A stretch of 36,245 bases of DNA, from IMG/VR virus record IMGVR_UViG_3300028743_000018, positions 1 to 36,245 of that record; one strand, 5' to 3'. The first letter of the stretch is position 1. The number at the start of each line of letters is the position of its first letter. Shown here piece after piece: positions 7,750-36,147 of this stretch. Source of the DNA: a virus. A program made the position numbers and the translations under genes. Under the pieces are notes generated by a model. The model was given only the letters and a program-made list of their open reading frames with translations. It did not search any database and was not told the origin of the DNA.

Positions 7750-8070
7750 CTAGATAACTCGTTTGGTGGTTGTAAAATAATTCTCCCCGGTCAGGGCCGC
7801 ATAATCTTGAAGGAACCGCGCCATATCAGGGAGGTTATCAGTTACGCCGGCTTGCTGCATCCGTAGCCACAATATCTTGGGGACGCTGGCGAATTGAAAG
7901 CCCATGTCCAGATCATAGCCAGTATAGCGCCCAGGCGTTTCCTCCCGGAGCGCCGCCGCTGAAGCAAGGACCGGAGCGACGTTCTGCACGTACGTTCCCA
8001 CCGCCCGGTCCTTAATGTAGCGGTAATCTGCCAGACGGCAGCTATGACTTACTCGCTGAGGTTGAGCCAT
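7750..8070 (-). CDS. Hypothetical head-cluster protein, 106 aa
   Basis: I choose ATG 8070 (MAQPQRVSHSCRL), which overlaps the end of the upstream exported protein by 22 bases. The longer frame to 8100 would lie deeper in that gene. The protein is mixed helical: a basic segment DYRYIKDRAVGTYVQNVAPVLASAAAL, then GYDLDMGFQFASVPKILWLRMQQAG and MARFLQDYAALTGENY. It ends FTTTKRVI, the copy of the shared tail motif. Position next to the capsid gene suggests a head or neck component, but no family is recognised. Confidence 0.6.
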   Translation of the reverse strand: MAQPQRVSHSCRLADYRYIKDRAVGTYVQNVAPVLASAAALREETPGRYTGYDLDMGFQFASVPKILWLRMQQAGVTDNLPDMARFLQDYAALTGENYFTTTKRVI

Positions 8071-8444
8071 GCTCTCATGCACCTCGCTGTATTGGTCCAC
8101 TTGATACGAACGTACGCAGTAACGTCAGACCACTGAAGGGGGGAGCCATTGGTGGTAGCGCTTATGGCTGTTCCATCCTCTTTAACGCAGGTTGACCACG
8201 GGCCATTGCTGGTAGGGCCGCATTGCACGAGCGCGGTCCCGGATAGCATTGAGGGGTTTGTAGACGCTTTAGTGCTATACCCCTGGAAGGTTACTGTCTT
8301 GTGTCGGAAATCTATTGCTTTGATGGCGCTACCCACGGTGGTTGCGCTGAACGTGGTGAACGCCAATTGTTTGACGTTGGGGCCGGCCATCGCGGCGCTG
8401 ACCAGGCAAAGAGTGACAAAAATTGTCAGTACAATATTACGCAT
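8049..8444 (-). CDS. Exported small protein next to the capsid gene, 131 aa
   Basis: ATG 8444 follows GAGGAGG. The first 20 residues form a classical Sec signal: MRN, hydrophobic IVLTIFVTLCLVSA, then a cleavage-type AMA before GPNV. The mature part (about 110 aa) is beta-rich and polar (LAFTTFSATTVG, KTVTFQGYST, ALVQCGPTSNGPWSTC, AYVRIKWTNTARCMRAWL) with three cysteines that could make a disulfide in the periplasm. Secreted proteins are unusual inside a capsid operon. It may coat the infected cell, act in superinfection exclusion, or be a moron. No family is recognised. Confidence 0.7.
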   Translation of the reverse strand: MRNIVLTIFVTLCLVSAAMAGPNVKQLAFTTFSATTVGSAIKAIDFRHKTVTFQGYSTKASTNPSMLSGTALVQCGPTSNGPWSTCVKEDGTAISATTNGSPLQWSDVTAYVRIKWTNTARCMRAWLNLSE

Positions 8445-8492
8445 CGGGTATCCTCCTCTATGGTGTGGGGCGCCGGAGCGCCCCGTTACGGT

Positions 8493-9440
8493 TTACAGCG
8501 TGCTCAGGTTGGTCAGACGGCCAGCACTCAACTCATTTTTGGCCTCCAGCGTGTGCTGGACGGTCATGTGGAACTTCCGATTGGAGCGTGAGCTACGGGC
8601 CAACTCCTGCACACCCACTGGAATGAGTGTGGCTTTCTTCCAGAAGGACGGGTCGAAGATAACAAACACGTCGGTCGGCATGGTGCGGTGGATCTCGGCC
8701 TTGATCGTACCCCACGATGTGACGTAAAGATCAACCTTGTCGTCCACCTGGTCCTTCTCGATGGCGCGGCGGTTGTTGCCGGTGGAGGCAAAGCCATCGA
8801 ACTTATCCTTCTGGACACTGCCACAGTAGGCGGTCATGGTCTTGTTCATCCCGCCACCGCCAGCGGCGTAGATGTTCTGCATGACGCCCTTGAGCAGTTC
8901 TTTGGTCAGCTCACGAGCCGAGCCGCCAGTTACGGTGCCGTCCGCGTGCAGCGTGGCGTCTGCTGCTTTGTCCAGGTTGGTGGTGATCCAGTTGAGCATC
9001 CCTTTCATGGATGGCTCTGTACCGGCTGCGCCGGCTGCGGCGACTTCACGGAGGAATGCCCACTCGATATCACCAACCAGGGCTTTCATCTTGAGGGCTT
9101 TCTGGTAGTCGTACCCACCGGAATTGCCCACGGTGTTTACGGCGGCAGCGGAGTCGGCGATGGAGAATGACTTCTCCTGGAGCTGAACGTAATTGAACAA
9201 CTTGGTGGGCTGCTCACTCGCTTCAATCGTCGGGTCCGAACCGATCAGCGCTTTGTTCTGGCCGGGGGTTTCAATGGCGTCGGTCATAAAGTCATGCTTC
9301 ATGGCGGTGACATTGGTCGTGCCGATAGAGTGATAGAACGGGCTGTCGATGGGAGTGATGATGGAAATCTCGTCCTGAATGTCCTCACGGTTGCCGGTCA
9401 AGTCAAAGGTGGTCATTGTGTTAGTCGGTACTGCGCCCAT
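8493..9440 (-). CDS. Major capsid protein, SU10-like (DUF5309), 315 aa
   Basis: ATG 9440 has AAGGAGG upstream. The sequence matches the SU10-type major head protein family: N-terminal MTTFDLTGNREDIQDEISIITPIDSPFYHSIG (split by the usual ITP), a loop with FNYVQLQEKSFSIADSAAAV, a long helix (YDYQKALKMKALVGDIEWAFLREVAA), a G-rich middle domain (TVTGGSARELTKELLKGVMQNIY), and a C-terminal beta part (AEIHRTMPTDVFVIFDP; RKFHMTVQHTLEAKNELS). Family members have the HK97 fold and build the icosahedral shell. Length is normal for the family. The scaffold gene lies immediately upstream, as expected. Confidence 0.9.
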   Translation of the reverse strand: MGAVPTNTMTTFDLTGNREDIQDEISIITPIDSPFYHSIGTTNVTAMKHDFMTDAIETPGQNKALIGSDPTIEASEQPTKLFNYVQLQEKSFSIADSAAAVNTVGNSGGYDYQKALKMKALVGDIEWAFLREVAAAGAAGTEPSMKGMLNWITTNLDKAADATLHADGTVTGGSARELTKELLKGVMQNIYAAGGGGMNKTMTAYCGSVQKDKFDGFASTGNNRRAIEKDQVDDKVDLYVTSWGTIKAEIHRTMPTDVFVIFDPSFWKKATLIPVGVQELARSSRSNRKFHMTVQHTLEAKNELSAGRLTNLSTL

Positions 9441-9452
9441 AGTGGGGCCTCC

Positions 9453-10355
9453 TTATGTGCGAGACTCGCGCAATGCTTTGCTGTACTCGGCAAGGTCAGA
9501 CGGGTTACCGCTCATGGCGGCGGTCTTGGCGGCGGCGAGTTTGTTGGCCTTGTCGTCCGTCATTACCCCGGTGCTGGTCTTGCCCTGCGGCAGCGTGGCT
9601 TTGGCTGCCTCCTTAGAGTTAATAAGATCCTGCTCTTTTTTGCCCATGTTCTGCTCGACGTAATCCTTGGCCCATAGCATCGCTGCGACGGGGCCTTGCA
9701 GCATGACCTTCTCCCGGTACTGTGCGTCGATGAGGGGCTTACTCTGGCGCTCCGCCAGAAAGAAATCCTCACCTTTCTTCCACACCTCAGCCGGGATGTT
9801 GTACTCTTTTGCTACCAGTGAAGATGCGCTGGATATCTGCTCGTTGATCGCAGCTATCTGTTGCTGGGATTGCTGGCGTTGGCCTTCCCGCTCCATGTGG
9901 CTGGCCTTGCGGGACTCGTTGGCCTTGATGGTTTCGCGGGTCTGGCGCAACTCCTCCTGAAGATCCAGCGCTTTCACAAAGTCGCCATCCAACTGCGCTT
10001 GCTCGATACTATCGAGCGTGGCCCGGATGTACTCATTGACTTTGCCAAAATCCAGATCCGGGATAAAGTCCAACGGGGCTTTCGTCTCGGTCTGTAATCT
10101 GGCGTTGATACGCGCCTCGGCCTCTGCAATCTTTTTGGAAGCGAGTTCTTCTACCCTCTCCTCCAAAGTTTTCTTCACCGGCTCGTCCGTCACCGTCGCT
10201 TCTTCGCCCTCAACCACCGCCGGTTGAGATTCAGGACTAACAGCGTCCGCGCTCTGCTCTGGTTCTGGTGTAGTCGTTGCGCCCTCAACCACCGCCGGTT
10301 GAGATTCCGGGCTATCAGCGCCCGCGTCCGTTGCTACCGTTACATCCTCATCCAT
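9453..10355 (-). CDS. Scaffolding protein, 300 aa
   Basis: Start at ATG 10355 with AAAGGA upstream; it ends 12 bases before the capsid start. Residues 1-60 are acidic and disordered and contain two copies of SPESQPAVVEG. Residues 60-220 are strongly helical and charged (KKTLEERVEELASKKIAEAEARIN; EQAQLDGDFVKALDLQEELRQTRETI), consistent with a coiled coil, and the C-terminus is a short basic helical region (NKLAAAKTAAM... LAEYSKALRESRT). Acidic N-terminus, coiled-coil centre, basic capsid-binding tail and position just before the major capsid gene are the usual scaffold signature. No protease domain is visible. Confidence 0.85.
   Translation of the reverse strand: MDEDVTVATDAGADSPESQPAVVEGATTTPEPEQSADAVSPESQPAVVEGEEATVTDEPVKKTLEERVEELASKKIAEAEARINARLQTETKAPLDFIPDLDFGKVNEYIRATLDSIEQAQLDGDFVKALDLQEELRQTRETIKANESRKASHMEREGQRQQSQQQIAAINEQISSASSLVAKEYNIPAEVWKKGEDFFLAERQSKPLIDAQYREKVMLQGPVAAMLWAKDYVEQNMGKKEQDLINSKEAAKATLPQGKTSTGVMTDDKANKLAAAKTAAMSGNPSDLAEYSKALRESRT
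10206..10326 (-). repeat. 46-bp direct repeat in the scaffold gene
   Basis: Segments 10206-10251 and 10281-10326 are near-identical, offset by 75 bases, and encode the duplicated SPESQPAVVEG segment of the scaffold protein. Each copy contains an internal inverted repeat (CAACC and GGTTG around ACCGCC). The offset is a multiple of three so the frame is kept. Confidence 0.8.
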
Positions 10356-10374
10356 CGCTAAGTCCTTTCAGGTA

Positions 10375-10980
10375 TTATTTAATTACGTAAGTAACCGGTA
10401 CTCCCGAATAAATAAGAAGGTAGTTGGTCAAATCACCGCCGACGTACATCTTGGTGTCCTGGTCCGCCTGGATTTCTATCGCCGTGGTTCCTGTTACAAA
10501 CGTATGGACTTTGGATTTTGTAAGGTGGTAATTAACTGGCCTCGGGATAACCATCCCCTGCATAACCACATTTCCGTCCTTGCCCATCGTACCCTTCATC
10601 ACCCCGATCCTGAGATTCGGTGTGGCTGTAATGGCCGATGACGCAATGCCGAAGGTTATGCTGGATACGTCAAATGCATCCGCCGAGCTGCACATCAGCG
10701 CCAGACACGCCACCGCCAGAATACTTCTGAGCCACCCCTTAAAAGTCCAGCGTACCTCCGGCTGGTCAACATTCATAATGCCCTCCATAATTCTTGGTAT
10801 CGTAACCCGTATGATCTCTCGGGTCAGGTGTGTCTGTAACACACGTTGCGGGTCGGTTACAACACAAATATTGTCATAGTCTTTTTGCAGCTCGTCGGCC
10901 ACATCCTGTAGGCGCTTCATAATGAGTTGAAAGCCTGGCGTAGCGGAGGCTTGGAGCATCTGTACTTGCTCGTTGGTCAT
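10375..10980 (-). CDS. Fused or dual-start protein with internal signal peptide, 201 aa
   Basis: The full frame starts at ATG 10980 (MTNEQVQMLQASATPGF), overlapping the 59-aa ORF by four bases. Residues 1-68 are helical and cytoplasmic-looking (GFQLIMKRLQDVADELQKD), of a type often seen as a stand-alone small phage protein. An internal ATG at 10776 (residue 69) has GGAGG five bases upstream and is followed by WLRSILAVACLALMCSSADA, a convincing Sec signal with an ADA cleavage site near residue 102. The mature 100 residues are beta-rich (SITFGIASSAITATPN; KVHTFVTGTTAIEIQAD). Either two genes fused, or one gene makes a cytoplasmic/membrane-anchored long form and a 133-aa secreted form. Function unknown. 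Confidence 0.65.
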   Translation of the reverse strand: MTNEQVQMLQASATPGFQLIMKRLQDVADELQKDYDNICVVTDPQRVLQTHLTREIIRVTIPRIMEGIMNVDQPEVRWTFKGWLRSILAVACLALMCSSADAFDVSSITFGIASSAITATPNLRIGVMKGTMGKDGNVVMQGMVIPRPVNYHLTKSKVHTFVTGTTAIEIQADQDTKMYVGGDLTNYLLIYSGVPVTYVIK

Positions 10981-11156
10981 GGTGTTCTCCGTTCGTAGAC
11001 TTCTTTCGCTATCTTTTGAATCTCCTCAACCGGGAGTCCTTTCCCTGGATTGAGCGCTTCGGATAACCAGGATAATGCACGGTACGTATTGTACGTGCCG
11101 TCCGGGTTCTTGGAGGCTTCGTCCAGCGTGGCTGCGTAGCGCGGGTCTGTGCTCAC
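10977..11156 (-). CDS. Small portal-linked protein, 59 aa, GTG start
   Basis: The frame from GTG 11156 to TGA 10977 overlaps the portal stop (GTGA) and the next ATG (ATGA), so it is tightly coupled on both sides. The protein begins MSTDPRYAATLDEASKNPDG and continues with a helix (ALSWLSEALNPGKGLP) and a charged helix VEEIQKIAKEVYERRTP. It has no cysteines or membrane segment. Small helical proteins right after the portal occur in many phages, but I do not recognise this one. Confidence 0.65.
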   Translation of the reverse strand: MSTDPRYAATLDEASKNPDGTYNTYRALSWLSEALNPGKGLPVEEIQKIAKEVYERRTP

Positions 11157-13177
11157 GCCTGACCCCCCTCGCTCATGGCCTGCGCCGCTGGGTCCGTTCC
11201 GTCCACCACTTGACCGGTCCGGTCCGGGAGCATCATACCCCCACCATTCTGGCGCGACTCAGCCAACCGGCCCGCCGTCTCGTCCTTAACTGACGCAGTG
11301 ACGGCGGTTGTTCCGGCGATAATGCCTTGCATAACCTGGTCCTTGACCGTAAGGCTGAGGGCGTCCCACGGGATAGCGAACGTGGCCTTGTGCTCCGCTG
11401 GGGGTGGCTGGGGTGGCTGGGGTGGCGTTTTGTCCAGCAAATCCTCCGGGCCGTAACCGGCCAGCACTGAGAGTTGCCGGTACGCGGCGACGGCGTCCAC
11501 GGGAATCTCGTGGGACTTACCCCAGTCCACCAACTGCATGGTGCTCTGCGCTTTCTGGTAGCGGGGGGCCGAGCCGAGACCGGCGTTGATCTGGATGTTT
11601 ACATCAATGTCGATAACGGATAGGTCAGGAATCTCCGTGCCGTCCATGCGCGTAGCTGTTGGCAGCGGTACGCCCGCTTTGCCGCTGGCAATGCGGAGGA
11701 TCGTCTCGTCCGTCTCAAAACAGATGGTGAGTTGCGCGATGAGGTAGAGAACCTTGTACATGAACGTCTGGTTGCGGGTGACGATCTGCACGCCCAACTT
11801 CTCGTCGCTCTCCATCTTGCCCATCTGGGTGGCGCCGAGAGTTTTGTTCGTGCCGCGCGGCACAACACCCCGTGCGCCGGATTGCAGACCCGCCGGGATC
11901 AATTCGTTGATCTCCTGGTTGATCATGTCGTCAGCGCGCAAACTGTTCACCACGTCGGCGTTGGTGTCGATGCTGCCAAAGTCAGCGCCGGCCTTTCCGT
12001 ACACGACCCGGCTGTTGAGGAGGTTATCGATGTTGGTGTCGCCACCTTCCTCCACCCACCACCGACCCTGTATGGCGATTTTGGCGGCGTCGGAGACGTT
12101 GTTCTTGTGGTTGACGTGTTCATCTTCCAGCGGTGATATGATCTCGGGGATGGCCCAGCCGACCTGCTCCAGCAGTTTGGGCTTGTTGTACCCCACGCTG
12201 ATGGGCAGGATATTCACATTCTTTCCGGCGAACCAGACATCCTTGACCTTTTTGCAATCACCCAGCGAGTCGGTGAAGTCGCCCAACGAGAACTGGACCT
12301 CCCAGCATCCGTGCTCCTTGTAGAACATGATGTTGAGATCCACGCCGTTGTGGTCCTTCAGGTCCACGTCCTTGCCGTTATCCACCGTCTTGTCGCCGTT
12401 GAGGTAATACTGGGTGGTGCTACCGGCGGTCTTCTGGTGTTTCTTCAGCACCTCGTCGGTGGCTTTGCTCTTGTCGATGACACCAGCGGCGGCCATAGCC
12501 TTGATCTGGTCGATGGTGCGGCTCAGTTTAACCCGGACAAACTGGCCGAGCTCCACATTGAGCAGCCCTACGGTGGGGTCCCAAATAATGTCGGAGCCCG
12601 GCTCAAGCTGATCGATCCACCACGTATCGCAGGTGACGGTACTCTTGGCGCCCTTCATTTTCTGGAAATCTTCCGGCATAACCTGGCGGTACTTGTCGTA
12701 AGTGGCCTTGTCCACCGGCTGCCCCAGATGCAGGTAAGTCGTCTCAGGCTCGTCGTACGCCTCATGACGCCACCACACCATACAGGCTTCCAATCCATCT
12801 ACCGCTCCGGCAAGACTGCTGGCCTGGTGCCAGGTGAAGAAAGGAAACATGCCATTTTGGCCGGAGGAACGATAGATAAAATCCTGCGTGAGCAGTTGGC
12901 CCCCCACATCTTTCGCGGGGTCGAACGCTGACTTGCTGGTAAACGCTATGGAGTCGGGGTCTTGGAACATCTCGATGGCGAGACGCTCCACGTATCTGTC
13001 AACGGCGGAGGTGCTCTTTGTGGAAGGGATAGTGGATAGACCGCGTGAGGAGCGTTCCTTCGCATCCTTGAGCTGCATGCGGTATCGGCGACGGGAGTCC
13101 GTAATGATGGTCTTTAACTTACCATCAAACCAAGCGGTGGCACCTGCAACTAACTCCTTTTGTCGTGTTAATTCCAT
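11153..13177 (-). CDS. Portal protein, 674 aa
   Basis: ATG 13177 starts MELTRQKELVAGATAWF. At 674 aa it is in the size range of P22-type portals of short-tailed phages. Features include an N-terminal basic helical part (RRRYRMQLKDAKERSS), an aromatic wing region (FPFFTWHQASSLAGAV; CMVWWRHEAYDEPETTYL), a stem/crown segment with PEIISPLEDEHVNHKNNVSD, and a C-terminal region with AGLQSGARGVVPRGTNKTLGA and helical repeats. Near residue 590 a Pro-Gln tract (PPQPPQPPP) is coded by a tandem GGGGTGGCT-type repeat at 11399-11427. It forms the dodecameric DNA channel at one capsid vertex, taking DNA from TerL. Order (TerL, HNH, portal, scaffold, capsid) supports the call. Confidence 0.85.
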   Translation of the reverse strand: MELTRQKELVAGATAWFDGKLKTIITDSRRRYRMQLKDAKERSSRGLSTIPSTKSTSAVDRYVERLAIEMFQDPDSIAFTSKSAFDPAKDVGGQLLTQDFIYRSSGQNGMFPFFTWHQASSLAGAVDGLEACMVWWRHEAYDEPETTYLHLGQPVDKATYDKYRQVMPEDFQKMKGAKSTVTCDTWWIDQLEPGSDIIWDPTVGLLNVELGQFVRVKLSRTIDQIKAMAAAGVIDKSKATDEVLKKHQKTAGSTTQYYLNGDKTVDNGKDVDLKDHNGVDLNIMFYKEHGCWEVQFSLGDFTDSLGDCKKVKDVWFAGKNVNILPISVGYNKPKLLEQVGWAIPEIISPLEDEHVNHKNNVSDAAKIAIQGRWWVEEGGDTNIDNLLNSRVVYGKAGADFGSIDTNADVVNSLRADDMINQEINELIPAGLQSGARGVVPRGTNKTLGATQMGKMESDEKLGVQIVTRNQTFMYKVLYLIAQLTICFETDETILRIASGKAGVPLPTATRMDGTEIPDLSVIDIDVNIQINAGLGSAPRYQKAQSTMQLVDWGKSHEIPVDAVAAYRQLSVLAGYGPEDLLDKTPPQPPQPPPAEHKATFAIPWDALSLTVKDQVMQGIIAGTTAVTASVKDETAGRLAESRQNGGGMMLPDRTGQVVDGTDPAAQAMSEGGQA

Positions 13178-13192
13178 GCCGCCCCTGTTGTG

Positions 13193-13672
13193 CTACGGAA
13201 AGTTTAATGCTGCGAACTCTCCGTGTAGTAGCTTTGCTGCTTTATCGTACGCTTCAGCTGCGTGTCGTATATCATTAAACGTTCCCAAAGTATACTGTTT
13301 TCCGTCCAAGGTAATCGCCGACCGCCAATGATCTTTTCTTTTTGCTCGGTACACACCCCTGTAAGGTGTAGTTGCGTTACTCTGCCGCTTTTGGTTACAC
13401 CCGTTCTGGCTGGATGTTGCGACCCGTAAGTTGTGTTTGCAGTTACACAGCGAGTCCCGGTTTCTGTGGTCTACTTTTCTTTTATCTGTAACGTTCATTA
13501 CTAGCCGATGTAAGAGTACCGGCCTGTATTTACCATCTATTTTTATGTCGGTGATGGCATACGTATTACCACCATTACCCACCATCGAACGCCACCTAAA
13601 TCCTGCTACACGGTCGTAATCTTCTGCGTCTACCGTCGTAATCCGCCCGCATACTAACTGTATTTCTCGCAT
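13193..13672 (-). CDS. HNH homing endonuclease with AP2 domain, 159 aa
   Basis: ATG 13672 follows GGAGG. Residues 1-50 are the usual beta lead-in (VDAEDYDRVAGFRW; YAITDIKIDGKYRPVLLHRLVM). The HNH core is visible as HR...VDHRNRD...NLRVAT with the paired Cys residues LCNCKHN. The last 55 residues form an AP2 DNA-binding domain (YRGVYRAKRKDHWRSAIT, then YTLGTFNDIRHAAEAYDKAA). This HNH-AP2 arrangement is a standard free-standing phage homing endonuclease, which cuts a target in phages lacking it and spreads by repair. It sits between terminase and portal, has its own promoter and structured leader, and looks more AT-rich than its neighbours, all signs of a mobile insertion. Confidence 0.88.
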   Translation of the reverse strand: MREIQLVCGRITTVDAEDYDRVAGFRWRSMVGNGGNTYAITDIKIDGKYRPVLLHRLVMNVTDKRKVDHRNRDSLCNCKHNLRVATSSQNGCNQKRQSNATTPYRGVYRAKRKDHWRSAITLDGKQYTLGTFNDIRHAAEAYDKAAKLLHGEFAALNFP

Positions 13673-13676
13673 CCAC

Positions 13677-13755
13677 CACCTCCGTAAGGTGCCCGTATGT
13701 TATTTAACGTCCAGGCGGTACGGTGCCGCTTTTCCCCTGCCGGGTAGGACGTTAA
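13677..13755 (-). promoter_or_regulatory. Structured 5' leader of the HNH gene
   Basis: Three nested structures are visible. TTAACGTCC at 13704-13712 and GGACGTTAA at 13747-13755 form a perfect 9-bp inverted repeat, and inside it a 4-bp stem GCGG/CCGC (13715-13718 with 13726-13729). Nearer the start codon, CACCT and AGGTG (13677-13691) form a 5-bp stem whose loop and stem contain the GGAGG ribosome binding site of the HNH gene. Hiding the ribosome binding site would limit endonuclease translation. No known riboswitch family is recognised. Confidence 0.5.
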
Positions 13756-13774
13756 TATTTTAAAATTGTGGGTG

Positions 13775-13802
13775 ATTTTACTCCTGTTTATGAGGATGTC
13801 AA
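13775..13802 (-). promoter_or_regulatory. Sigma-70 promoter downstream of terL
   Basis: Minus-strand TTGACA at 13797-13802, a 16-bp spacer and TAAAAT at 13775-13780 (5 of 6 to TATAAT). It begins only about nine bases beyond the TerL stop and would drive the HNH gene and then portal, scaffold and capsid. Confidence 0.65.
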
Positions 13803-13810
13803 GTTATATT

Positions 13811-15780: not shown

Positions 15781-15792
15781 GTCTCTACCTCC

Positions 15793-16356: not shown

Positions 16357-16387
16357 AATCTCCCCCTTGCGACGCCGGTATGAGTGC

Positions 16388-16416: not shown

Positions 16417-16456
16417 GTATTTTTTATTTATTGGTATAGCCCTTCCGCGCCTTTAT

Positions 16457-23048: not shown

Positions 23049-23175
23049 CCCGCACCTCCCGGCTGATACGGAGGATAGCGGCTTTGCGCCGGCGTATGCA
23101 GTCCGCTAGCTGCGTGGTGATCTGGTACAATTTCTTGAGGCAGGTGTACTCTCCGGGTGTTAATACATCATACAT
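23041..23175 (-). CDS. Small helical protein between HNH and VRR-NUC, 44 aa
   Basis: ATG 23175 has GGAGG six bases upstream. The product starts MYDVLTPGEYTCLKKLYQIT, then TQLADCIRRRKAAILRI and SREVRGE. It is helical and Arg-rich, like a small nucleic-acid-binding helix pair. Its end overlaps the VRR-NUC start by eight bases, and its start lies inside the 3' end of the HNH gene by 16 bases. Tight spacing supports a real gene. Function unknown. Confidence 0.55.
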   Translation of the reverse strand: MYDVLTPGEYTCLKKLYQITTQLADCIRRRKAAILRISREVRGE

Positions 23176-23798
23176 GCGCTACCTCCAGTCGGGGTGTAAT
23201 GTTTACTTACAGTATCTTTGGCACCTTTGCTACAGTTGCAACCTCGGTGTGCTGTTTGTACGTTTGACGGCTCGTGAGCCCCACCCGCTACAATCGGTAT
23301 GATGTGGTCGATAGTCGGGTACAGTGGGTGGAGTCTATGAACAAAAGGAAGTACCCCCGTACCACAGAGTTGGCAGGTGTAGTTATCTCGCTCAAATATT
23401 TGTTGTTTATTAACGGAGGCCTTGAACGCCCCGCGTCTACGAGCCCGGTAATCCGCCGCCCAATTCTGCACCGACTCTTTATTTTTCGCGTAGTATTCTG
23501 CGCTGTAGTCTCGTGCGTGGGCGTTAAATTTTTCCCGGTGTTTATTTCTGTATTTTCTGCGGCTATCCGCGTACCGCTCGGGATGTAGCAACTGGAGCGC
23601 TTTGTCTCGTTGCGTTGCCTCCGCTCGATGCTCCTTGTTATACTCCAGTATTTTATCTTTGTTATCAATTCTGTATTGTTTTTTGTACGCAGCCATCTTC
23701 TCTCTATTGGCGGCCCGGTACGCTTTATCTTTATCCCGGTGGGTTTGGCATTGTGTGAGCCCCGCTACAGCTTCATTACCACACTGACGACATTTCAT
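23160..23798 (-). CDS. HNH endonuclease with zinc-finger N-terminus, 212 aa
   Basis: ATG 23798 overlaps the helicase stop by four bases. Residues 1-20 hold a treble-clef-like CRQCGNEAVAGLTQCQTH. Residues 25-130 are charged helices with repeating NREKxxxYKKxYR / HREKFNAHARDYS units, a common linker in phage HNH enzymes that contacts DNA. The catalytic part is FERDNYTCQLCGTGV with Cys pair, TIDHIIPIVAGG (HH) and NVQTAHRGCNCSKG. This is a complete HNH motif with structural zinc. The gene is visibly richer in A and T than its neighbours, suggesting recent insertion of a homing-type endonuclease in the replication operon. Confidence 0.85.
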   Translation of the reverse strand: MKCRQCGNEAVAGLTQCQTHRDKDKAYRAANREKMAAYKKQYRIDNKDKILEYNKEHRAEATQRDKALQLLHPERYADSRRKYRNKHREKFNAHARDYSAEYYAKNKESVQNWAADYRARRRGAFKASVNKQQIFERDNYTCQLCGTGVLPFVHRLHPLYPTIDHIIPIVAGGAHEPSNVQTAHRGCNCSKGAKDTVSKHYTPTGGSACMMY

Positions 23799-27537: not shown

Positions 27538-27541
27538 CACA

Positions 27542-28345: not shown

Positions 28346-28349
28346 TAGT

Positions 28350-28477: not shown

Positions 28478-28509
28478 TTCAATCTATCTGACAGATCGGA
28501 GAGTGCCAC

Positions 28510-28665: not shown

Positions 28666-28666
28666 A

Positions 28667-28837: not shown

Positions 28838-29325
28838 GAACTTTTGACACCGGAGCGACACGCTCCCCGCTGGCCGACAAGCCCCAATACGAGGGGTATC
28901 TTCATCCACTCGTTATCAAGCGCTTCGGTGAGTACATGCTGAAGCACCAGACGCAGGCTGACGGGCAACGCCGCGCTGCCGACAACTGGCAGAAGGGAAT
29001 CCCCCCTGACAGCCTCATGGACTCAGCGTGGCGCCACCTGCTGGACGTGTGGCTGCATCATCGCGGCCACCCCGAAGAGGCAGCAGAGCCGTTGGAGGAG
29101 GCGTTGTGCGCGGTCATGTTCAACATGATGGCTCTGTTGCTACATAGCCTCACGGCGCAACGCACCCCGACCCTGGCGGAGCATGAGGAAGCAGCGGGGA
29201 TGGTGCTGGAGCCGCAGTTTATGAAGCATGTGGCGTGCTCGCGCGTACCCTGTAAATTCTATCAAACCAATCTCAACGAGCCGCCATGCCGGACTTGCCG
29301 AGATCACTCAAGATTTCAGGAGTAG
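28834..29325 (+). CDS. dATP/dGTP diphosphohydrolase-like protein (DUF5664), 163 aa
   Basis: I place the start at ATG 28834 (MRTFDTGATRSPLADK), overlapping the previous stop, because FDTGATR is the conserved opening of the family. Typical elements follow: KPQYEGYLHPLVIKRFGEYM, NWQKGIPPDSLMDSAWRHL and EEALCAVMFNMMALLLHSL. The helical RHL...D and acidic residues form an all-alpha NTP-pyrophosphatase-like fold related to MazG. The C-terminus (ACSRVPCKF; PPCRTCRDH) adds a four-Cys zinc site. Such enzymes hydrolyse dATP or dGTP and are known beside genes for 2-aminoadenine DNA, but no purZ-like gene is visible here. It precedes PolA by three bases. Confidence 0.75.
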   Translation: MRTFDTGATRSPLADKPQYEGYLHPLVIKRFGEYMLKHQTQADGQRRAADNWQKGIPPDSLMDSAWRHLLDVWLHHRGHPEEAAEPLEEALCAVMFNMMALLLHSLTAQRTPTLAEHEEAAGMVLEPQFMKHVACSRVPCKFYQTNLNEPPCRTCRDHSRFQE

Positions 29326-29328
29326 TAC

Positions 29329-31356
29329 ATGCCAGCTACAATTGATTTTGAGACGTTCTCGTCCGCTGGTTTTTACCAAGACGCCTCGGGCAAATGGCGG
29401 GGCATTACCAAGACCTCGCCCGGTCTGCCCGCAGTTGGAGCGCCGGCCTATGCCGAGCACCCATCCTGTCGTGTCCTGTCACTCGCCTGGGATCTGCATG
29501 ACGGCGCCGGCCCCCACATGTGGATACCGGGGATGCCCGCGCCGCTGGATCTCTTTGCGTACCTCGCCACCGGTGGCACAGTTGAGGCGCATAATGCGGG
29601 CTTTGAATACTGGATCTGGCACCACGTATGCCACGGACGGATGGGCTGGCCCGCTCTGCCGCTGGCGCAACTCTCCTGCTCCCTGGCGAAGTGCCGCGCT
29701 CACAGTCTGCCCGGTAAACTTGGCAAGGCCGCCGAGGTGCTGGGCGCCGCAGAACAGAAGGACAAAGCGGGCGATGCGCTTATCCGTAAGCTCTGCATTC
29801 CCAATAATTTAAAGAGCACCAAGAGCCCGCCCCGAAGGTCAGCGGCGCTGGAGGATTACAATGCACTCTACCAATATAACATCCAGGACATTCGAGCTGA
29901 GGCTGCAATATCTAGCCTATGCCCTGACCTTAGCGCGTCGGAACAAAAGCTGTGGCTTCTCGATCAATCCATTAACATTCGAGGAGTGGCTATCGACACA
30001 GACGCGCTCCGAGACTGCATCAGTGCCGTGCAACGCACCACTGATCGATTCACGGAGGAGCTGAGAGACTTAACGGGTGGCGCCGTCCAGTCCGTCGGTG
30101 AGCTAGCAAAGATCACCGCCTGGCTGGCGACGCAGGGTGTTCATACAGGTAGTCTGGAGTCTGACGCGGTGGACGAGTTACTGAAGGATGTGTGGATGCC
30201 CGACGGTGCGCACCGTGTCCTGACGATACGCTCCGCCCTCGGCTCTGCCTCAGTCAAAAAACTCTTCGCCATCGAGCGTCGGCTGACCAGTGATGGCCGG
30301 CTGCACGATCTGTTCGCGTTCTGCGGGGCGGACCGGACCGGGCGATGGGCGGGCCGCGGGCCGCAGCCACAGAACCTCCCTGGTGGCGCGACGCCGGAGC
30401 GGGTGGACGAGATACTGGCCGGTCTGTCCGAGCGTGAGCCGTCATTGGAGATTATCTCGGACGTGTCGAGCTGTCTGCGCGGCCTCTTTGTGGCGGCGCC
30501 AGGGCATGAGCTGCTCTGTTCCGACTTTTCGGCCATAGAGGCGGTGGTGCTGGCGGAGCTGGCCGGGGAGGAGTGGCGGCGGGAGGTCTTTAGGACACAC
30601 GGAAAGATATACGAGACTTCTGCGAGTCTGCTCACCGGCAAGACTCTGGAGTTCTACGCTCAGTATAAGCTGGAGAATGACGCCCACCACCCTGATCGAA
30701 AGAAGGGGAAAGTCGCGGAGCTGGCGAGTGGCTACGGTGGCGGACTCGGCGCATGGAAAGCGTTTGGCGCTGACGCCTTTATGACGGATGAGGAGATCCA
30801 GGAAGCGGTCCGGGCTTGGAGAGCAGCCAGCCCCGCCATTACTACGTTCTGGTGGGGCCTACAAGATGCCGCACTCGCTGCGATTACCAACCCCGGCTAC
30901 TGCTACTCGTACCGGGATATCTCATTCGGAGTGGCCGGAGATATCCTCTATTGCCGGCTGCCCAGCGGTCGGCGTCTCACCTACCACCAACCCGGCGTCT
31001 ACCAGAAGATGATGCCCTGGGGTAAGCAGACAACCTGCATCACCTACATGGGATGGAACTCAAATTATCTGAATGGTCCGGTCGGTTGGATGCGGTTGGA
31101 AACGTATGGTCCGAAGCTCACGGAGAATGTGGTGCAGGCGGTAGCACGGGACATCCTGGCGAGTAGCATGATGCAACTGGACGCTGCTGGGTACTCCATC
31201 GTCCTGCATGTCCACGACGAGATTGTGGCGGAAGTACCGCAAGGATGGGGCAGCGTGGAAGAGTTTGAGGTGATCATGGGCCGGATGCCGGAGTGGGCCG
31301 CTGGTTGGCCGGTACGTGCGGCGGGTGGTTGGCGCGGTCGGAGGTACCGGAAGTGA
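29329..31356 (+). CDS. polA: Family A DNA polymerase with 3'-5' exonuclease, 675 aa
   Basis: ATG 29329 follows AGGAG. The exonuclease has motif I IDFETFSSA (Asp6, Glu8), motif II EAHNAGFEYWI and motif III YNIQDIRAE, so proofreading looks intact. In the polymerase domain, motif A is CSDFSAIEAVVLAELAGE, motif B RKKGKVAELASGYGGG and motif C HVHDEIVAEV. The Arg after Glu in motif A (IEAR in relatives) is Val here. In motif B the residue at the Klenow Phe762 position is Leu by my alignment, a variant linked in viral-ecology studies to slower, often temperate phages. No 5'-3' exonuclease domain. It is the replicative polymerase of the DUF2800-DUF2815 module. Confidence 0.92.
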   Translation: MPATIDFETFSSAGFYQDASGKWRGITKTSPGLPAVGAPAYAEHPSCRVLSLAWDLHDGAGPHMWIPGMPAPLDLFAYLATGGTVEAHNAGFEYWIWHHVCHGRMGWPALPLAQLSCSLAKCRAHSLPGKLGKAAEVLGAAEQKDKAGDALIRKLCIPNNLKSTKSPPRRSAALEDYNALYQYNIQDIRAEAAISSLCPDLSASEQKLWLLDQSINIRGVAIDTDALRDCISAVQRTTDRFTEELRDLTGGAVQSVGELAKITAWLATQGVHTGSLESDAVDELLKDVWMPDGAHRVLTIRSALGSASVKKLFAIERRLTSDGRLHDLFAFCGADRTGRWAGRGPQPQNLPGGATPERVDEILAGLSEREPSLEIISDVSSCLRGLFVAAPGHELLCSDFSAIEAVVLAELAGEEWRREVFRTHGKIYETSASLLTGKTLEFYAQYKLENDAHHPDRKKGKVAELASGYGGGLGAWKAFGADAFMTDEEIQEAVRAWRAASPAITTFWWGLQDAALAAITNPGYCYSYRDISFGVAGDILYCRLPSGRRLTYHQPGVYQKMMPWGKQTTCITYMGWNSNYLNGPVGWMRLETYGPKLTENVVQAVARDILASSMMQLDAAGYSIVLHVHDEIVAEVPQGWGSVEEFEVIMGRMPEWAAGWPVRAAGGWRGRRYRK

Positions 31357-31357
31357 T

Positions 31358-31391
31358 AAAAAAAAACGGCGTTGCCGGAGAAAGCAACGCC
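31358..31391 (-). terminator. Intrinsic terminator of the lysis/tail block
   Basis: GGCGTTGC (31368-31375) pairs perfectly with GCAACGCC (31384-31391). On the minus strand the stem is followed by nine T (31358-31366). It ends minus-strand transcription from 31418 just where the plus-strand polA gene ends. Confidence 0.9.
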
Positions 31392-31417
31392 ATGCCAAAT
31401 AGGCTACGCGGTAACTG

Positions 31418-32059
31418 TCACCATCTATATTCTATATTCGCCCACGGGATTATTTCCGCCTTACGGTCTTTAGCATCGGGCCGAGCTATTGCGTCAAGCT
31501 GCCCCTGGATATACACGCCTTTGATCTGGGCCACGTCGCGCTTGTAATAGACCTTCCCAGCCGTCCCGTCGTTTGAGCTATACCCCACTCCCACCCCCGC
31601 CGTGTTGCCACGCTCAAAGGAAAACCAGGGGGCTTTTTTATACACAATGTCGGTTCTCGACTGCCCGGTGCTGGCATTCACAAACACAACAGCAGTCGCG
31701 CCGTAATGGTTGGCCGCTACAGCCGCCGCCGTCAGGAGTTCTTCTTTCGGGTTATGGGCTTCGGTGGCGGGTAGTTCCAGCTTAGCTACAGCATCGGCCT
31801 TTTCTTTGATAACAACCAGCTTTGGAACATAGACGATCTTGGTTTCCATCTGGGCGATCTGCGGGGCTTTTGGCACTGAAATTGTAACAGCGCCGGGGTC
31901 GGCAGGCTGCGGCCCCCATTTACACCATGCAAGATATAGGCACAACACGATATCAATCCCGGCGTACAGTTTCCATCGCCAGTCCGGGACTTTGGCCAGA
32001 TAGTCTTTTACGTTCTGCCAGCGGGTCTTAACTCCCTGTTGTAGTTGTGCCGCATCCAT
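31418..32059 (-). CDS. Single-pass membrane protein, spanin-like candidate, 213 aa
   Basis: I start at ATG 32059 (MDAAQLQQGVKTRW), since the longer frame lies in the holin gene. A basic N-terminus precedes one transmembrane helix (LYAGIDIVLCLYLAW, about residues 31-45). The rest is a periplasmic domain of about 165 residues with helical linker (VPKLVVIKEKADAVAKLEL) and a beta-rich end (GVGVGYSSND; VYYKRDVAQIKGVYIQGQ). Next to the holin and endolysin, an anchored periplasmic protein suggests an i-spanin or another lysis factor, but no lipoprotein partner is visible and the beta-rich end is atypical. Alternative: a phage-encoded envelope protein. Confidence 0.6.
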   Translation of the reverse strand: MDAAQLQQGVKTRWQNVKDYLAKVPDWRWKLYAGIDIVLCLYLAWCKWGPQPADPGAVTISVPKAPQIAQMETKIVYVPKLVVIKEKADAVAKLELPATEAHNPKEELLTAAAVAANHYGATAVVFVNASTGQSRTDIVYKKAPWFSFERGNTAGVGVGYSSNDGTAGKVYYKRDVAQIKGVYIQGQLDAIARPDAKDRKAEIIPWANIEYRW

Positions 32060-32303
32060 TATCTGCCGCCTTTCCCTTCTCGTACGCTGTCGCCCCTTTG
32101 CTGGCCGTGACTCCAAAAACAAGAGCGGTAAGTAGCCACTCGACAAAATCGCTCAGGGTGGGGGGGATAACGGGGAGGGCTTGCAATTTCCACCCGGCCA
32201 TCGACACCCACACGATCACAGTGACCACGAGGAGAAGCATACACACCCGCTGACAAGATGGTTGACCTTTTTCGTCACTCAGCATTTTTGTTGCAAAGCT
32301 CAT
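32028..32303 (-). CDS. Holin, two-helix type, 91 aa
   Basis: ATG 32303 (MSFATKMLSDEKGQPS) has GAAAGGAC upstream. Two hydrophobic helices are visible: VCMLLLVVTVIVWVSMAGW (about residues 19-37) and FVEWLLTALVFGVTASKGA (about 51-69), followed by a charged C-terminus (AYEKGKAADNG). Size, two helices, basic/charged tails and position between endolysin and the anchored protein are typical of a class II holin. A similar arrangement is seen in phages with 'helix-loop-helix' holins of this kind. Overlaps the next gene by 32 bases. Confidence 0.7.
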   Translation of the reverse strand: MSFATKMLSDEKGQPSCQRVCMLLLVVTVIVWVSMAGWKLQALPVIPPTLSDFVEWLLTALVFGVTASKGATAYEKGKAADNGCGTTTTGS

Positions 32304-32412
32304 TTTTTGTCCTTTCTTCCTGCCGTTTGCAATAACCACACACCTCACACTTTATTTCAGCCTCTTGAGCATCGCATGTCCTGACGCCTGTAACTTTACA
32401 AATGTGGCACAT
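32275..32412 (-). CDS. Small Cys-rich protein in the lysis cassette, 45 aa
   Basis: ATG 32412 with GGGAG nine bases upstream. The sequence has MCHICKVTGVRTCDAQEAEI and then KCEVCGYCKRQEER, so CxxC, C, CxxCxxC and a last C. This gives a likely zinc-binding knuckle. The ORF overlaps the holin start by 29 bases. A regulator of holin expression is possible but not shown. Not recognised. Confidence 0.5.
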   Translation of the reverse strand: MCHICKVTGVRTCDAQEAEIKCEVCGYCKRQEERTKNELCNKNAE

Positions 32413-32416
32413 AGCG

Positions 32417-32998
32417 TTATCTCCCGTTTTTCTCCACCACCTTCAAGATGTTTTCGTATCGACGCTTGCAATCTCCGGGGTGTTCCCGCCCGTATTTGGT
32501 GTGGTTAAGCTTGAAGTCCTGCACATCCTGCCCGGCTACCGGGCGCTTGGTGTCGATGGCGTTGAAGTAGGCTGCGATACCATCCCCCTCACTGCCGTAT
32601 TGGTTCACGTAATCGGCGACCGCCAGTAGAGCGGTGGTGTCCGCCATAATGATGCCGCGGGCAACGTTGAACTCCAGCGCCTGGTTGAGGCATCGGGAAA
32701 GTTGCGCCTCGTCGTACCGGGCCACCACATCCTTGTGCGCGACAAGTCTGGCCGCCAAGGGTCGCACGTCTATGGTCTGATCGACAACGCCATGGATCTC
32801 GTCCTGGGTAAAGCCACAGTCCACCAGACAGTCGATAGCTGCACCGTTGTGGCGGGTATCAAACTGGCAGAGGCCAAAGGACCAGCCGGAACGCCCGCTG
32901 GCCCCATCAGGATCGGAAAAACGCAGGGCCGCCGAAGTATCCCCACCCAGCTCGTTCAAAAGGATCACGTCATAAAAAAGTTCGTTTAGTGTTTTCAT
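32417..32998 (-). CDS. Endolysin, lysozyme-like, 193 aa
   Basis: ATG 32998 (MKTLNELFYDVILLNELGGD) is preceded by AGAGG and overlaps the small zinc ORF by four bases. The early LNELGG has Glu16, the likely catalytic acid of a lysozyme-like fold, followed by LRFSDPDG and WSFGLCQFD, matching the 'GWSFGxxQFD' core of phage muramidase-type enzymes. The rest is helical (TQDEIHGVVDQ; FNVARGIIMADTTALLAVADY). It has no signal peptide, so it should exit through the holin pore. Cleaves peptidoglycan in host lysis. Confidence 0.75.
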   Translation of the reverse strand: MKTLNELFYDVILLNELGGDTSAALRFSDPDGASGRSGWSFGLCQFDTRHNGAAIDCLVDCGFTQDEIHGVVDQTIDVRPLAARLVAHKDVVARYDEAQLSRCLNQALEFNVARGIIMADTTALLAVADYVNQYGSEGDGIAAYFNAIDTKRPVAGQDVQDFKLNHTKYGREHPGDCKRRYENILKVVEKNGR

Positions 32999-33111
32999 TT
33001 CCTTACCTCTTTCCATGGGCAGCCGTTACACTGCCATTTAGTCCCGTGGCCTTTACGCGCATTCCAATGTGGACATGTCATCTCCGGCGTTGTTTTGCCA
33101 ATGAAACGCAT
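32995..33111 (-). CDS. Small zinc-knuckle protein upstream of endolysin, 38 aa
   Basis: ATG 33111 has AGAGG seven bases upstream. The product starts MRFIGKTTPEMTCPHWNARK and continues GHGTKWQCNGCPWKEV, with C-P-H...C..C forming a short Cys/His knuckle. Its TGA overlaps the endolysin ATG (ATGA), which supports coupling. It overlaps the end of the tail-spike gene by 34 bases in another frame. Function unknown. Confidence 0.5.
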   Translation of the reverse strand: MRFIGKTTPEMTCPHWNARKGHGTKWQCNGCPWKEVRK

Positions 33112-35201
33112 TTGGTTGCCTCTCGGTTACTTGACGTGTCTGTGGAAGCAAAGCATGTCGTTTGGTGAGCTATGTTTTGAAGCATATAAAAAGGCGCTGA
33201 ATATGTCAAGGCCGGGGTGCATTCGGGGCCAAGGCAGTAAAGAGTTGTAGCACACGTCGCCGAACCATCAGTGCAAGTAAGTGTTACTTGCTGACTCGAT
33301 TGGTACCGACCCGACTTGTTGGCTGAGGTTGTTGGGGGGTACGGCGCAGCCCCGTCTATAACTATGCTTGGCCCGGAAGCGCACGCCAACATATTCCCTG
33401 TGGCCCTCCAACACTGAGATTCAAATCTTGCTTGGTCGCCAGTGCCATAGGTGTTGCTGAAAAAATTAAACGTTGCAGCAATAGAACTGCTGTTAATTTC
33501 AAACCCATAAAAAGGGTTGTCCACCGTCCCGGTCGTTTCAAATCTGTTTCCAGTAAAAACCACATTATCTGTGCCGGATTCACTGTAATCAATATACGCC
33601 CAGCGACGGTTTGTCCTAAAAGTATTGTTATTGATAAGGACTGTTGTGGGGCTGTTCATGTCTGCAAAACGCATTGTGGTAGCTCTTGCAGAACCGGAGG
33701 CAACGGCTGTGAAGGTATTGTCGTGAATGTTCATGCTTACGCCTGTTCCTGGGGCATCAGGATTTATACGTAAAGCGCTCCCTTCGCAATCCCCGGCATT
33801 TGCCGTTACCGTGTTGCCGTAGACCTCCGCATTGACGGCGGAATATTCCGCCTGCATGCCATACGCACCAGCTGTTTGGCACCCATTGTATTCCTGATTT
33901 CGTACTAACTCTTGCACCGTTATGGTGTTGTTGTGAACCTTGGTGTTGGCCCCGCTAACCACGATACCCCGGCAAGCATTACTACTAGTCCCACAATTTA
34001 CTGTATTTCCATAAACCTCTGCCCCGTTAGCTACTATTGCGAAATCGTTTGTATATCTACTTTGAAGAGTTATATTGTTGTTATAAACTTGGTTTGGAGT
34101 TTGCCCCAGGGTCTGTTGAAGAAATATTGCGGTTTGAACACCCGTGGCGAATATGTTGTGGTGTATCGTCGAATTGTACGATATTGAATTGTACGCTATA
34201 TAAATAGCCGCTCCGTCGTAATTATCCCTAGATTGTATTGTAGTGACATTGTGATTAATTGTATTGTAATTGATAGTCGAGCCGTTGAAATGATAACCGG
34301 CTATGGCCCTGGAATTAACCCCTTGAACTGTCAAAATAAGATGGTCTATGCTAAATCCTTCCCTACCCTGTTCGCCCATATTCACGGCATGGGAATTAAA
34401 TCCGTTGCCCTGGCCTTGTGTTATAGAGCCGTTGGTGATGATAAAGTTTTTTGAGTTAGCATTGTTGGGTGCCACGTCAACGCCATATGAGTTTGCGCGA
34501 AGTATTTTAACGTCGTCAACGTATATATAACCTATTGCCCCGCTCGGAACGCCTGATATGCTGATTCTTATTTTACCTGTCACAGGGTTCGCCCCGGTTG
34601 TAAACACTACATTACTGAACTGAAACCCTCGCCAAGTGACGCCTGGTTGTGGCGTAGTCGCACTATACGCCGTGCCGTCAATAGAAACGGTCATGACTAT
34701 AGGGTCGCGGAACCCTCCTACATAGTCGTTTTGCGTTGTTTCATTATTGCCGCTGTTCCGAAACATGGCGCTGAGGCTGTAGGTGGTGTTGGCCGCCAAC
34801 GTGACGGTGTTGGCCGAGAGGACGTATTGGTCAGATGCAGGAAGCGCGAACCGGAGAGCATATGATCCACTGTAGAGGGTCACAGGGTTGATAAAAGACC
34901 CTGCCGCTACGGAGGCGTTGGGTGCGTTTGCAAAATCCCATCCTGTAGAGTCGCCTGTTTCAAAACCTCCATTGGTCACGGTGATAGGCGTTGCGTTGTC
35001 ATAGGTGACGGTGTGGCCGTTGAGGTTGAGTTTCACCTTCTGGGCGGCAATGGTGAAGCATGTCCCGGTGCTGCTCACATCTGCGGTCAGACGGTACGAA
35101 GTGCTATAGGTGTTGAAAGTCTGGCAGGTAGAAACGTCTGTAATTGCAAAAGAACTGGTAGACAAACACAACACCAAGATAAAACTAAGGAGCAGACGCA
35201 T
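33078..35201 (-). CDS. Secreted beta-helix tail-spike-like protein, 707 aa
   Basis: ATG 35201 gives a Sec signal MRLLLSFILVLCLSTSSFA and a mature start ITDVSTC. Residues 25-65 match the start of right-handed beta-helices (YRLTADVSSTGTCFTI; LNLNGHTVTYDN). A carbohydrate-binding-like beta-sandwich is inserted at about 70-235 (GGFETGDSTGWDF to YIYVDDVKI). A long parallel beta-helix follows to about 590, with repeated YNNNI/YGNTV/IHDNTF turns. The last 90 residues resemble a chitobiase-type C-terminal domain (PPTTSANKSGRYQSSQQVTL; PFYMLQNIAHQTTCFA). This is a receptor-binding or depolymerase spike fold. A signal peptide is unexpected for a virion protein. Confidence 0.75.
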   Translation of the reverse strand: MRLLLSFILVLCLSTSSFAITDVSTCQTFNTYSTSYRLTADVSSTGTCFTIAAQKVKLNLNGHTVTYDNATPITVTNGGFETGDSTGWDFANAPNASVAAGSFINPVTLYSGSYALRFALPASDQYVLSANTVTLAANTTYSLSAMFRNSGNNETTQNDYVGGFRDPIVMTVSIDGTAYSATTPQPGVTWRGFQFSNVVFTTGANPVTGKIRISISGVPSGAIGYIYVDDVKILRANSYGVDVAPNNANSKNFIITNGSITQGQGNGFNSHAVNMGEQGREGFSIDHLILTVQGVNSRAIAGYHFNGSTINYNTINHNVTTIQSRDNYDGAAIYIAYNSISYNSTIHHNIFATGVQTAIFLQQTLGQTPNQVYNNNITLQSRYTNDFAIVANGAEVYGNTVNCGTSSNACRGIVVSGANTKVHNNTITVQELVRNQEYNGCQTAGAYGMQAEYSAVNAEVYGNTVTANAGDCEGSALRINPDAPGTGVSMNIHDNTFTAVASGSARATTMRFADMNSPTTVLINNNTFRTNRRWAYIDYSESGTDNVVFTGNRFETTGTVDNPFYGFEINSSSIAATFNFFSNTYGTGDQARFESQCWRATGNMLACASGPSIVIDGAAPYPPTTSANKSGRYQSSQQVTLTCTDGSATCATTLYCLGPECTPALTYSAPFYMLQNIAHQTTCFASTDTSSNREATKCVSLAKQRRR
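33181..33209 (-). promoter_or_regulatory. Sigma-70 promoter of the lysis cassette
   Basis: Minus-strand TTGACA (33204-33209), 17-bp spacer, TATGCT (33181-33186; 4 of 6 to TATAAT). It lies inside the 3' end of the tail-spike gene and would drive the zinc-knuckle ORF, endolysin, holin and membrane protein. Confidence 0.6.
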
Positions 35202-36147
35202 AATTGCCTCCAGCGAAGTTATCGAATATGCCGGTATACCAAACCATCAGCCCGATACTACCTGTAGAGTATGTAGTATCTGTGGCTGTAGCAACTACAG
35301 TACCGTTACGAGAAATTGTTATAGTAGATCCGTTAGCACACAGTCTCATAACATCTCCCACATTTTCTGCCGAATAATCGGTTGCTATCGAAGTAGGGGA
35401 ACCTGAATCTTCCCTAAATATTTGTTGCGCAGACTCTCTATAGGAGTAACCACTTAGCCCGTCGGAGCTAGTGCGAACCCACAGCTTATTGCTACCGTCG
35501 ATGTTAACTTGCGTAGCCTGCACGCATTGGTTAGACCCATAGGAATCTCCTGTGTATAGCGCCATACCTCTGCCAGCAGTGGACCCTCCTACTGTAAACT
35601 GACCCCCGGAAACAACTGGTATTAAAGCAGAATTGGCATTTATAGACACTGTCCATTTAGCACTTAAAGCCCCGTCGGTGCTAAAAGAGTCTGTGTACCA
35701 CCCCCCCGTTGCAATCCCTGCCCCACTCAAAGCAATTTGTTGCCTGGTAAAATTTGGAGCCGAATAATTCAAAAAACCCGTAAAACTTCCAGCGGCCGTA
35801 GGCGCAAAAGATACCGTTCCAGTGCAACTTGCCCCGCTTGCAAGGTCAAACGGATTCGTCCCACATGTCCGGGATGACTCACTAAATCCGGTGCCCGTAA
35901 CGGTCAGGATAGCCCGCTCCCATACGCCTAATCCGGTGGAAGTAAAGGTGAACGTTTTTGAGTGGACGACTCCCGTCGAGACGTTACCAAAAATCCAGGA
36001 CATAGGGAAGATAGAAACGTTGGTGGTCATATCAATGTACCGCGCACCGTGGTTGTGAACCCCCCATCTAAAAATTCCAGCCGCCCCACTGCAAACCTGA
36101 GCAGATCCGGCGCACAACAAAAACAACACAGTAAGTATTCTGGTCAT
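35185..36147 (-). CDS. Secreted beta-sandwich protein, 320 aa
   Basis: ATG 36147 starts with a Sec signal MTRILTVLFLLCAGSAQVCSG. Residues 35-150 resemble a choice-of-anchor D / ASH-type beta-sandwich: SWIFGNVSTGVVHSKTFTFT, AILTVTGTGFSESS and CTGTVSFAPTAAGSFTGFLN (shown in part). Residues 155-320 resemble a concanavalin-like lectin domain (SFSTDGALSAKWTVSIN; NKLWVRTSSDGLSGYSYRE; GTVVATATDTTYSTGSIGLM, IFDNFAGG). It overlaps the tail-spike gene by 17 bases. Two beta-sandwiches and a signal suggest an exported adhesion-like or decoration protein; a phage receptor-binding role is possible but untested. Confidence 0.7.
   Translation of the reverse strand: MTRILTVLFLLCAGSAQVCSGAAGIFRWGVHNHGARYIDMTTNVSIFPMSWIFGNVSTGVVHSKTFTFTSTGLGVWERAILTVTGTGFSESSRTCGTNPFDLASGASCTGTVSFAPTAAGSFTGFLNYSAPNFTRQQIALSGAGIATGGWYTDSFSTDGALSAKWTVSINANSALIPVVSGGQFTVGGSTAGRGMALYTGDSYGSNQCVQATQVNIDGSNKLWVRTSSDGLSGYSYRESAQQIFREDSGSPTSIATDYSAENVGDVMRLCANGSTITISRNGTVVATATDTTYSTGSIGLMVWYTGIFDNFAGGNYASAP

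Follow-up and report, generated by a model that had tools for sequence, protein, structure and literature searches.

In the structural gene region of the virus analysed here, three genes encode proteins that begin with textbook N-terminal Sec signal peptides (SPs): the gene directly after that of the major capsid protein (MCP), at 8049-8444, and two genes in the tail-spike slot, at 33078-35201 and 35185-36147. These SPs are real, and relatives have retained that of the post-MCP gene, so there is good support for predicting export. Based on the observations reported here, we tentatively suggest that these genes encode genuine Sec preproteins that are exported late and still become parts of the virion, a reading to which we give a little less than an even chance. 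In this model, the three products would be made late in infection, exported by the Sec system and cut by the host signal peptidase. They would fold with disulfides in the periplasm and would attach to capsid and tail once lysis mixes the compartments, the post-MCP product as a small jelly-roll of cement type and the other two as occupants of the tail-spike/fibre slot. Alternatively, export and retention could be split, such that one gene feeds both virion parts and a surface-bound pool.

The window, i.e. the whole stretch of DNA that was analysed, is a 36,245-bp IMG/VR virus record (Table 1). The four ORFs that a preliminary description had singled out for their signal peptides are all present and all on the minus strand, and two of them do flank the capsid and scaffold genes, as that description had it. 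With its PF17236 MCP (3.9e-65) the window phage is an SU10-type podovirus, and in GenBank this MCP has its relatives, with identities of ~30%, mainly among LUZ24-like podoviruses of Pseudomonas. One further contig, G003, is 99.99% identical to the window over 17 kb, so it represents the same virus and is not independent evidence. It prolongs the phage past the left end of the window, where it encodes the full 1684-aa protein, a 114-aa product containing a hydrophobic segment, and the beginning of another SP-bearing spike-slot protein, which is related to SP-bearing spike-slot proteins of G005/G122 and G002. The part of this phage not seen separates the end of G003 from the right end of the window. 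Candidate HNH/AP2-like homing endonuclease genes were recognised by eye at 13193-13672 and 23160-23798 of the window, one of them beside the terminase gene.

Table 1. Features of the window that bear on the signal peptide-bearing proteins.
Feature	Position	Strand	Remarks
5' part of a 1684-aa protein, probable internal virion protein	2..1303	-	whole in contig G003
SP protein encoded directly after the MCP; mature part jelly-roll/beta-sandwich with conserved Cys pair CGPTSNGPWSTC	8049..8444	-	
SP of 8049-8444: MRNIVLTIFVTLCLVSAAMA, predicted cut before GPN	8385..8444	-	score 5.9
MCP, SU10 type, without SP	8493..9440	-	Pfam PF17236 (SU10_MCP) 3.9e-65; PHROG 1328
Scaffold protein, without SP in the window	9453..10355	-	position (as in LUZ24 and Bjorn) and composition
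Fusion: small protein of the portal-scaffold interval of relatives, SP-like segment and ~100-aa tail	10375..10980	-	
Internal SP-like segment of the fusion, residues 83-102: WLRSILAVACLALMCSSADA	10675..10734	-	
Portal protein	11153..13177	-	Pfam SU10_portal 3.9e-6, slightly under cut-off
Conserved 190-199-aa protein directly after the spike slot, probably endolysin	32417..33016	-	synteny, by eye
707-aa SP protein in tail-spike slot, probably beta-helix; 14 Cys in mature part	33078..35201	-	
SP of 33078-35201: MRLLLSFILVLCLSTSSFA, predicted cut before ITD	35145..35201	-	SD-like GGAGG upstream
320-aa SP protein in tail-spike slot; choice-of-anchor D/ASH-like domain (47-144), then probable ConA-like lectin domain	35185..36147	-	
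SP of 35185-36147: MTRILTVLFLLCAGSAQVCSG, predicted cut before A or at an earlier site	36085..36147	-	

SPs were scored with a home-made tripartite scorer calibrated on two annotated 49-kb stretches of E. coli K-12. All 22 Sec or lipoprotein precursors in these stretches scored at least 3.5 and none of the 45 cytoplasmic proteins did so; because 4 of 14 inner-membrane proteins also reached this value, the scorer separates SPs from membrane anchors incompletely. Applied to the four proteins of the preliminary description, it returned 5.9 for 8049-8444, 5.9 for 33078-35201 and 5.3 for 35185-36147, and all three have the form of signal peptidase I preproteins, with a basic n-region, a short h-region and small residues at -3/-1. 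The fourth, 10375-10980, contributes a segment without a start codon inside a fusion, so that the four genes with signal peptides become three genes and one fusion. Chance hydrophobic N-termini are ruled out by the calibration, by composition-preserving shuffles of the window proteins (~0.2% of trials reached 5.0) and by a scan of the 192 mechanical ORFs of the window, in which four scored at least 5.0, three of them being the genes discussed here. Ribosome-binding sites range from a strong Shine-Dalgarno sequence at 8049-8444 (AGAGGAGG) through GGAGG at 33078-35201 to only GGGGG at 35185-36147; the possibility that wrong or internal starts hide SP-less products is countered by the strong Shine-Dalgarno sequences at the SP starts of 8049-8444 and of the Mu-type MCPs inspected. 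The three SP proteins of the window are rich in cysteine; over all SP proteins, an excess of cysteine that could point to disulfides was not significant.

The post-MCP gene provides the comparative evidence. Homologues lie directly after the MCP gene in SU10-type phages (L003, L005, L017/L020/L045, L024, L025 and G105) and near the MCP gene in phages of other capsid types (L042 and L047). L042 is a Geobacter MAG contig in which one gene separates the MCP from the SP gene; its MCP is N4-like by eye and gives no match to the SU10 MCP profile, while the MCP of L047 is Mu-type by eye. With the window included, L017/L020/L045 counted once, and L025 and G122 taken as the same prophage type, the post-MCP gene carries an SP in every distinct lineage found, about 8-9. 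The SP scores of the homologues span 5.0-6.5 although the letters of the SPs are divergent, and the motif C[GA]P[TA][SA]xGPW[SA]xC of the mature part is kept in most of them, with one or both cysteines lost in the two most distant. No member of this family was found in GenBank phages. Among 141 Geobacterales genomes, three have convincing relatives and one a marginal one, and the 277 genomes of the class yielded no others. Because the relatives sit in Geobacterales genomes, we infer that the host of the window phage, for which the record itself has no label, is likely a member of the Geobacterales.

An AlphaFold2 model of the post-MCP protein (pLDDT 73) has a helix followed by a beta-sandwich. 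In VIA-align, the two top rows are YomS, with Z 12.5, and PBSX XepA, matched through its C-terminal domain with Z 12.4; the next row is at 9.7, so that the protein falls with the XepA/YomS family by fold. Phage capsid and cement proteins (BPP-1 3j4u_H, KHP40 and the Agrobacterium phages 7-7-1 and Milano) scored Z 7.6-8.7, which is in the range of unrelated jelly-rolls, and past the top few the Foldseek and VIA-align matches are generic jelly-rolls. The gene lies beside the MCP gene, and cement genes often adjoin the MCP gene. The fold, which is close to XepA/YomS and resembles cement proteins more weakly, therefore decides neither for a cement nor for an envelope role.

In 10375-10980, the SP-like segment is preceded by 82 residues and has no ATG, GTG or TTG at the right place (CTC AGA AGT ATT), i.e. 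no start from which it could be translated as an N-terminus. The first part of this protein is the orthologue of a 91-aa protein of L003 that ends in WLRHVLGER, and since the L003 protein stops there, 10375-10980 is a fusion; it is also present in the near-identical contig G003. The fusion protein would be anchored in the membrane with its C-terminal domain outside. L003 (contig 3300045918_000334) also has, at 14-2362, a terminase large subunit gene that seems to contain an intein-like insert, HINT-like and LAGLIDADG-like by eye.

The two remaining SP proteins lie past the end of the structural operon, between the probable internal virion protein and the probable endolysin, for which no HMM match was obtained, and this is the position of tail fibres or spikes. 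They matched no fibre PHROG or Pfam family; a syntenic G122 protein does match fibre families. 35185-36147 matches NF012200 (choice-of-anchor D, 1.8e-9) and Pfam Cep192_D4 (2.5e-5), both below the curated cut-off, and its lectin part was recognised by eye; 33078-35201 has weak matches to NTTRR-F1 and OmpL47-type domains, which are surface-protein-like. Thus, the labels "beta-helix" and "lectin-like" that these proteins had been given are best kept as provisional. Neither protein has relatives among GenBank phages or in IMG/VR, and the conservation argument for the SPs therefore does not extend to these two. No SP-free fibre candidate was found in the window phage, including the G003 extension, as far as it has been seen. 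At 4378-4890 the window encodes a protein without SP whose N-terminus is similar by eye to that of G006 41078-42547, which has an SP score of 4.3; the pair may reflect gain or loss of an SP within one tail-protein family. G006 (3300025000_000167) is a 47-kb contig with near-identical MCP regions at both ends (L023/L024 and L043/L044), which may be two related strains joined together or may have a terminal repeat.

SPs on fibre-type genes recur in relatives. In a survey of related genomes they were found in G001, G002, G004, G005 and G006, with four such genes standing consecutively in G002, one of them with a lipobox-like SP; lipobox-like SPs on fibre-slot proteins are those of G002 23103 and G004 5148. 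In G004, the lipobox-like SP is followed by a tailspike N-terminal domain, recognised by a match of residues 55-126 to a putative tailspike from Pseudoalteromonas phage H6/1; the matched region belongs to the N-terminal part of that protein and lies ~17 residues from its annotated start. In the Geobacter contig L042/G008, an Mtd_N domain (residues 28-66, 6.6e-15) directly follows the SP, and among the GenBank matches listed the alignments start at residue 28; in two GenBank records checked, Mtd_N is at residue 5-7 of the annotated fibre or minor tail CDS. A second Geobacterales genome, G062, combines an SP with Mtd_N, while a third, G116, has Mtd_N without an SP. In G122, a Geobacterales genome with a prophage inside a 207-kb contig, the spike slot holds two SP proteins of 399 and 562 aa. 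The former matches PHROG tail-fibre families (5.8e-17), the sole such match among the genes tested, and no SP-free tail-fibre candidate was found among the genes tested in the whole prophage. The SP of the 399-aa protein is a single case and less secure: there is no clear Shine-Dalgarno sequence at the SP start and an upstream in-frame start has one. SP-bearing fibre-slot genes are not confined to Geobacterales: in some other members of the phylum they occur downstream of the Mu-type MCP gene (L132, L137-L139).

A further group of SPs lies on capsid proteins themselves. Among Geobacterales, Mu-type MCP matches (PF10124) carry an SP in 4 of 7 genomes, one of the seven (G138) being a weak partial match whose ORF may not be an MCP. 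Elsewhere in the phylum-wide sample none of the 28 readable loci does so (two loci were unreadable), a difference with a Fisher p of ~7e-4 if shared ancestry is ignored. The SP-bearing MCPs, from Geobacterales prophages (L087, rc 907; L088, rc 189; L089, 655-1710; L090, 524-1558), have strong ribosome-binding sites and, in at least two, no usable canonical start. Their SPs precede a common LP[LVF]IG[IVF][GA]G[LM]I[VI]N, and relatives elsewhere begin with MIVN or MIIN. SPs are not a feature of every Geobacterales capsid type, since HK97-type MCPs have none (0 of 14). In the Mu-type MCPs of G015:C4, G023:C62, G044:C3 and G065:C61, PF10124 is matched in the order 1-151, ~220-288 and ~152-218, which suggests a circularly permuted or swapped domain. 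SP-like leaders also occur on the scaffolds of G002 and G005 and on one SU10-type MCP (L045). A leader of the form MK..KK..LFPxxxxMG was seen at three distinct loci only, on the scaffolds at L005 ~3712 and L057 1422-2468 (minus strand) and on the MCP at L045 5782-6780; L017, a relative of L045, is without it. By comparison, in five control phages (Mu, BPP-1, LUZ24, Bjorn and MW202462) no virion gene starts with an SP, the matches of the scorer there being lysis, membrane, internal-start or antisense ORFs.

From their sequences, the SPs look functional: the letters diverge while the n-, h- and c-regions are kept, signal peptidase I and lipobox-like forms both occur, and the ribosome-binding sites are mostly real. 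The preliminary description had offered export to the cell surface or an unusual route into virions; export is predicted, and the evidence contains points in favor of each option. Virion membership is favored by the SPs in front of Mtd_N or a tailspike N-terminal domain together with the lack of any SP-free fibre among those seen, and the neighboring docking domains speak for a place in the virion for the fibre-type proteins at least. The close rival, which we regard as a serious possibility and nearly as likely as virion assembly after export, is that the products are late secreted or surface proteins that never join virions and owe their place in the structural operon just to late timing; receptor masking, a block to superinfection and the loosening of matrix or envelope for release are the roles proposed. 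Domains of the choice-of-anchor D and OmpL47 types are characteristic of secreted proteins, and their occurrence in 35185-36147 and 33078-35201, like the lipobox-like SPs of certain fibre-slot proteins and the XepA-like fold of the post-MCP protein, favors such an envelope role. XepA, the second-best fold match, is reported in PMC6834076 to be exported in the course of phage development and not to occur in virions. It is difficult, however, to accommodate under an envelope-only role the docking domains right behind the SPs in relatives, the lack of a remaining SP-free receptor-binding fibre in G122 or the seen part of the window phage, and the SPs on Mu-type MCPs.

These last MCPs also reconcile poorly with attachment after lysis. 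Together with the SP-like leaders on the scaffolds and on the L045 MCP, i.e. on proteins that must stay cytoplasmic for DNA packaging, they would fit a membrane tether, in which structural proteins are kept by their hydrophobic N-termini at the inner membrane, where assembly would take place, or are delayed in folding by them, and lose these N-termini at maturation. We consider this improbable: in most of the SPs the c-region is complete, with AxA or a lipobox, and the h-region is short, a design by which the domain behind the SP is exported, and tethering would bring fibres no obvious gain. The least probable of the readings is that secreted host proteins were captured and recruited as fibres, with the SPs as functionless leftovers. 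The host-like secreted domains of 35185-36147 and 33078-35201, which are both orphans, speak for it; the post-MCP family and the Mu-type MCPs, however, are phage families with divergent and intact SPs, and leftovers should decay. Returning to virion assembly after export, its widest form is that unrelated Geobacterales phage types make cement, fibres, spikes and even a Mu-like MCP as Sec or lipoprotein preproteins that mature in the envelope and join at lysis, and in this generality we consider it rather unlikely.

Assembly of tailed phages is taught as a cytoplasmic process, and Sec signals as confined to proteins for lysis and lysogenic conversion. If virion parts do mature in the envelope, this would be a second assembly compartment for tailed phages. 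Clade-wide SPs on capsid-adjacent and receptor-binding proteins would imply envelope-stage assembly or surface-displayed receptor-binding proteins, and they bear on superinfection, on adsorption to debris and on annotation, in which SP-bearing phage genes could pass for host surface proteins. In the open-access literature, to which the search was confined (subscription papers and preprints were outside its scope), there was no report of a pattern in which capsid proteins, cement proteins or tail fibres bear SPs.

Known systems share parts of this arrangement. For instance, SAR endolysins and other Sec-using phage lysis proteins are late and have Sec signals (PMC3765740); however, they are lysis enzymes and not products of capsid or fibre genes. 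XepA (PBSX) and YomS (SPbeta) of Bacillus prophages are the best fold matches of the post-MCP protein, at ~10% identity, but XepA has its place in the lysis cassette, whereas the window gene follows the MCP gene with the probable lysis genes elsewhere, and the account of XepA in PMC6834076, as far as it deals with export, describes no SP, in contrast to 8049-8444. The small cement jelly-rolls of BPP-1 and KHP40 are similar to the model at Z 7.6, a value also reached by unrelated jelly-rolls, while in 8049-8444 an SP precedes the fold. The known cement proteins are, to our knowledge, cytoplasmic. SU10/LUZ24-type podoviruses (Bruynoghevirus, Bjornvirus) have, like the window, an MCP of family PF17236 and the order portal, small gene, scaffold, MCP, small gene and tail genes, but their small post-MCP genes (LUZ24 gp61 and Bjorn gp64) are without an SP at the annotated start. 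Finally, Mtd-type and podovirus tailspike receptor-binding proteins have the same Mtd_N or tailspike N-terminal domain as the relatives of the window; in the annotated GenBank proteins checked this domain is at or near the N-terminus, whereas in the relatives of the window an SP precedes it.
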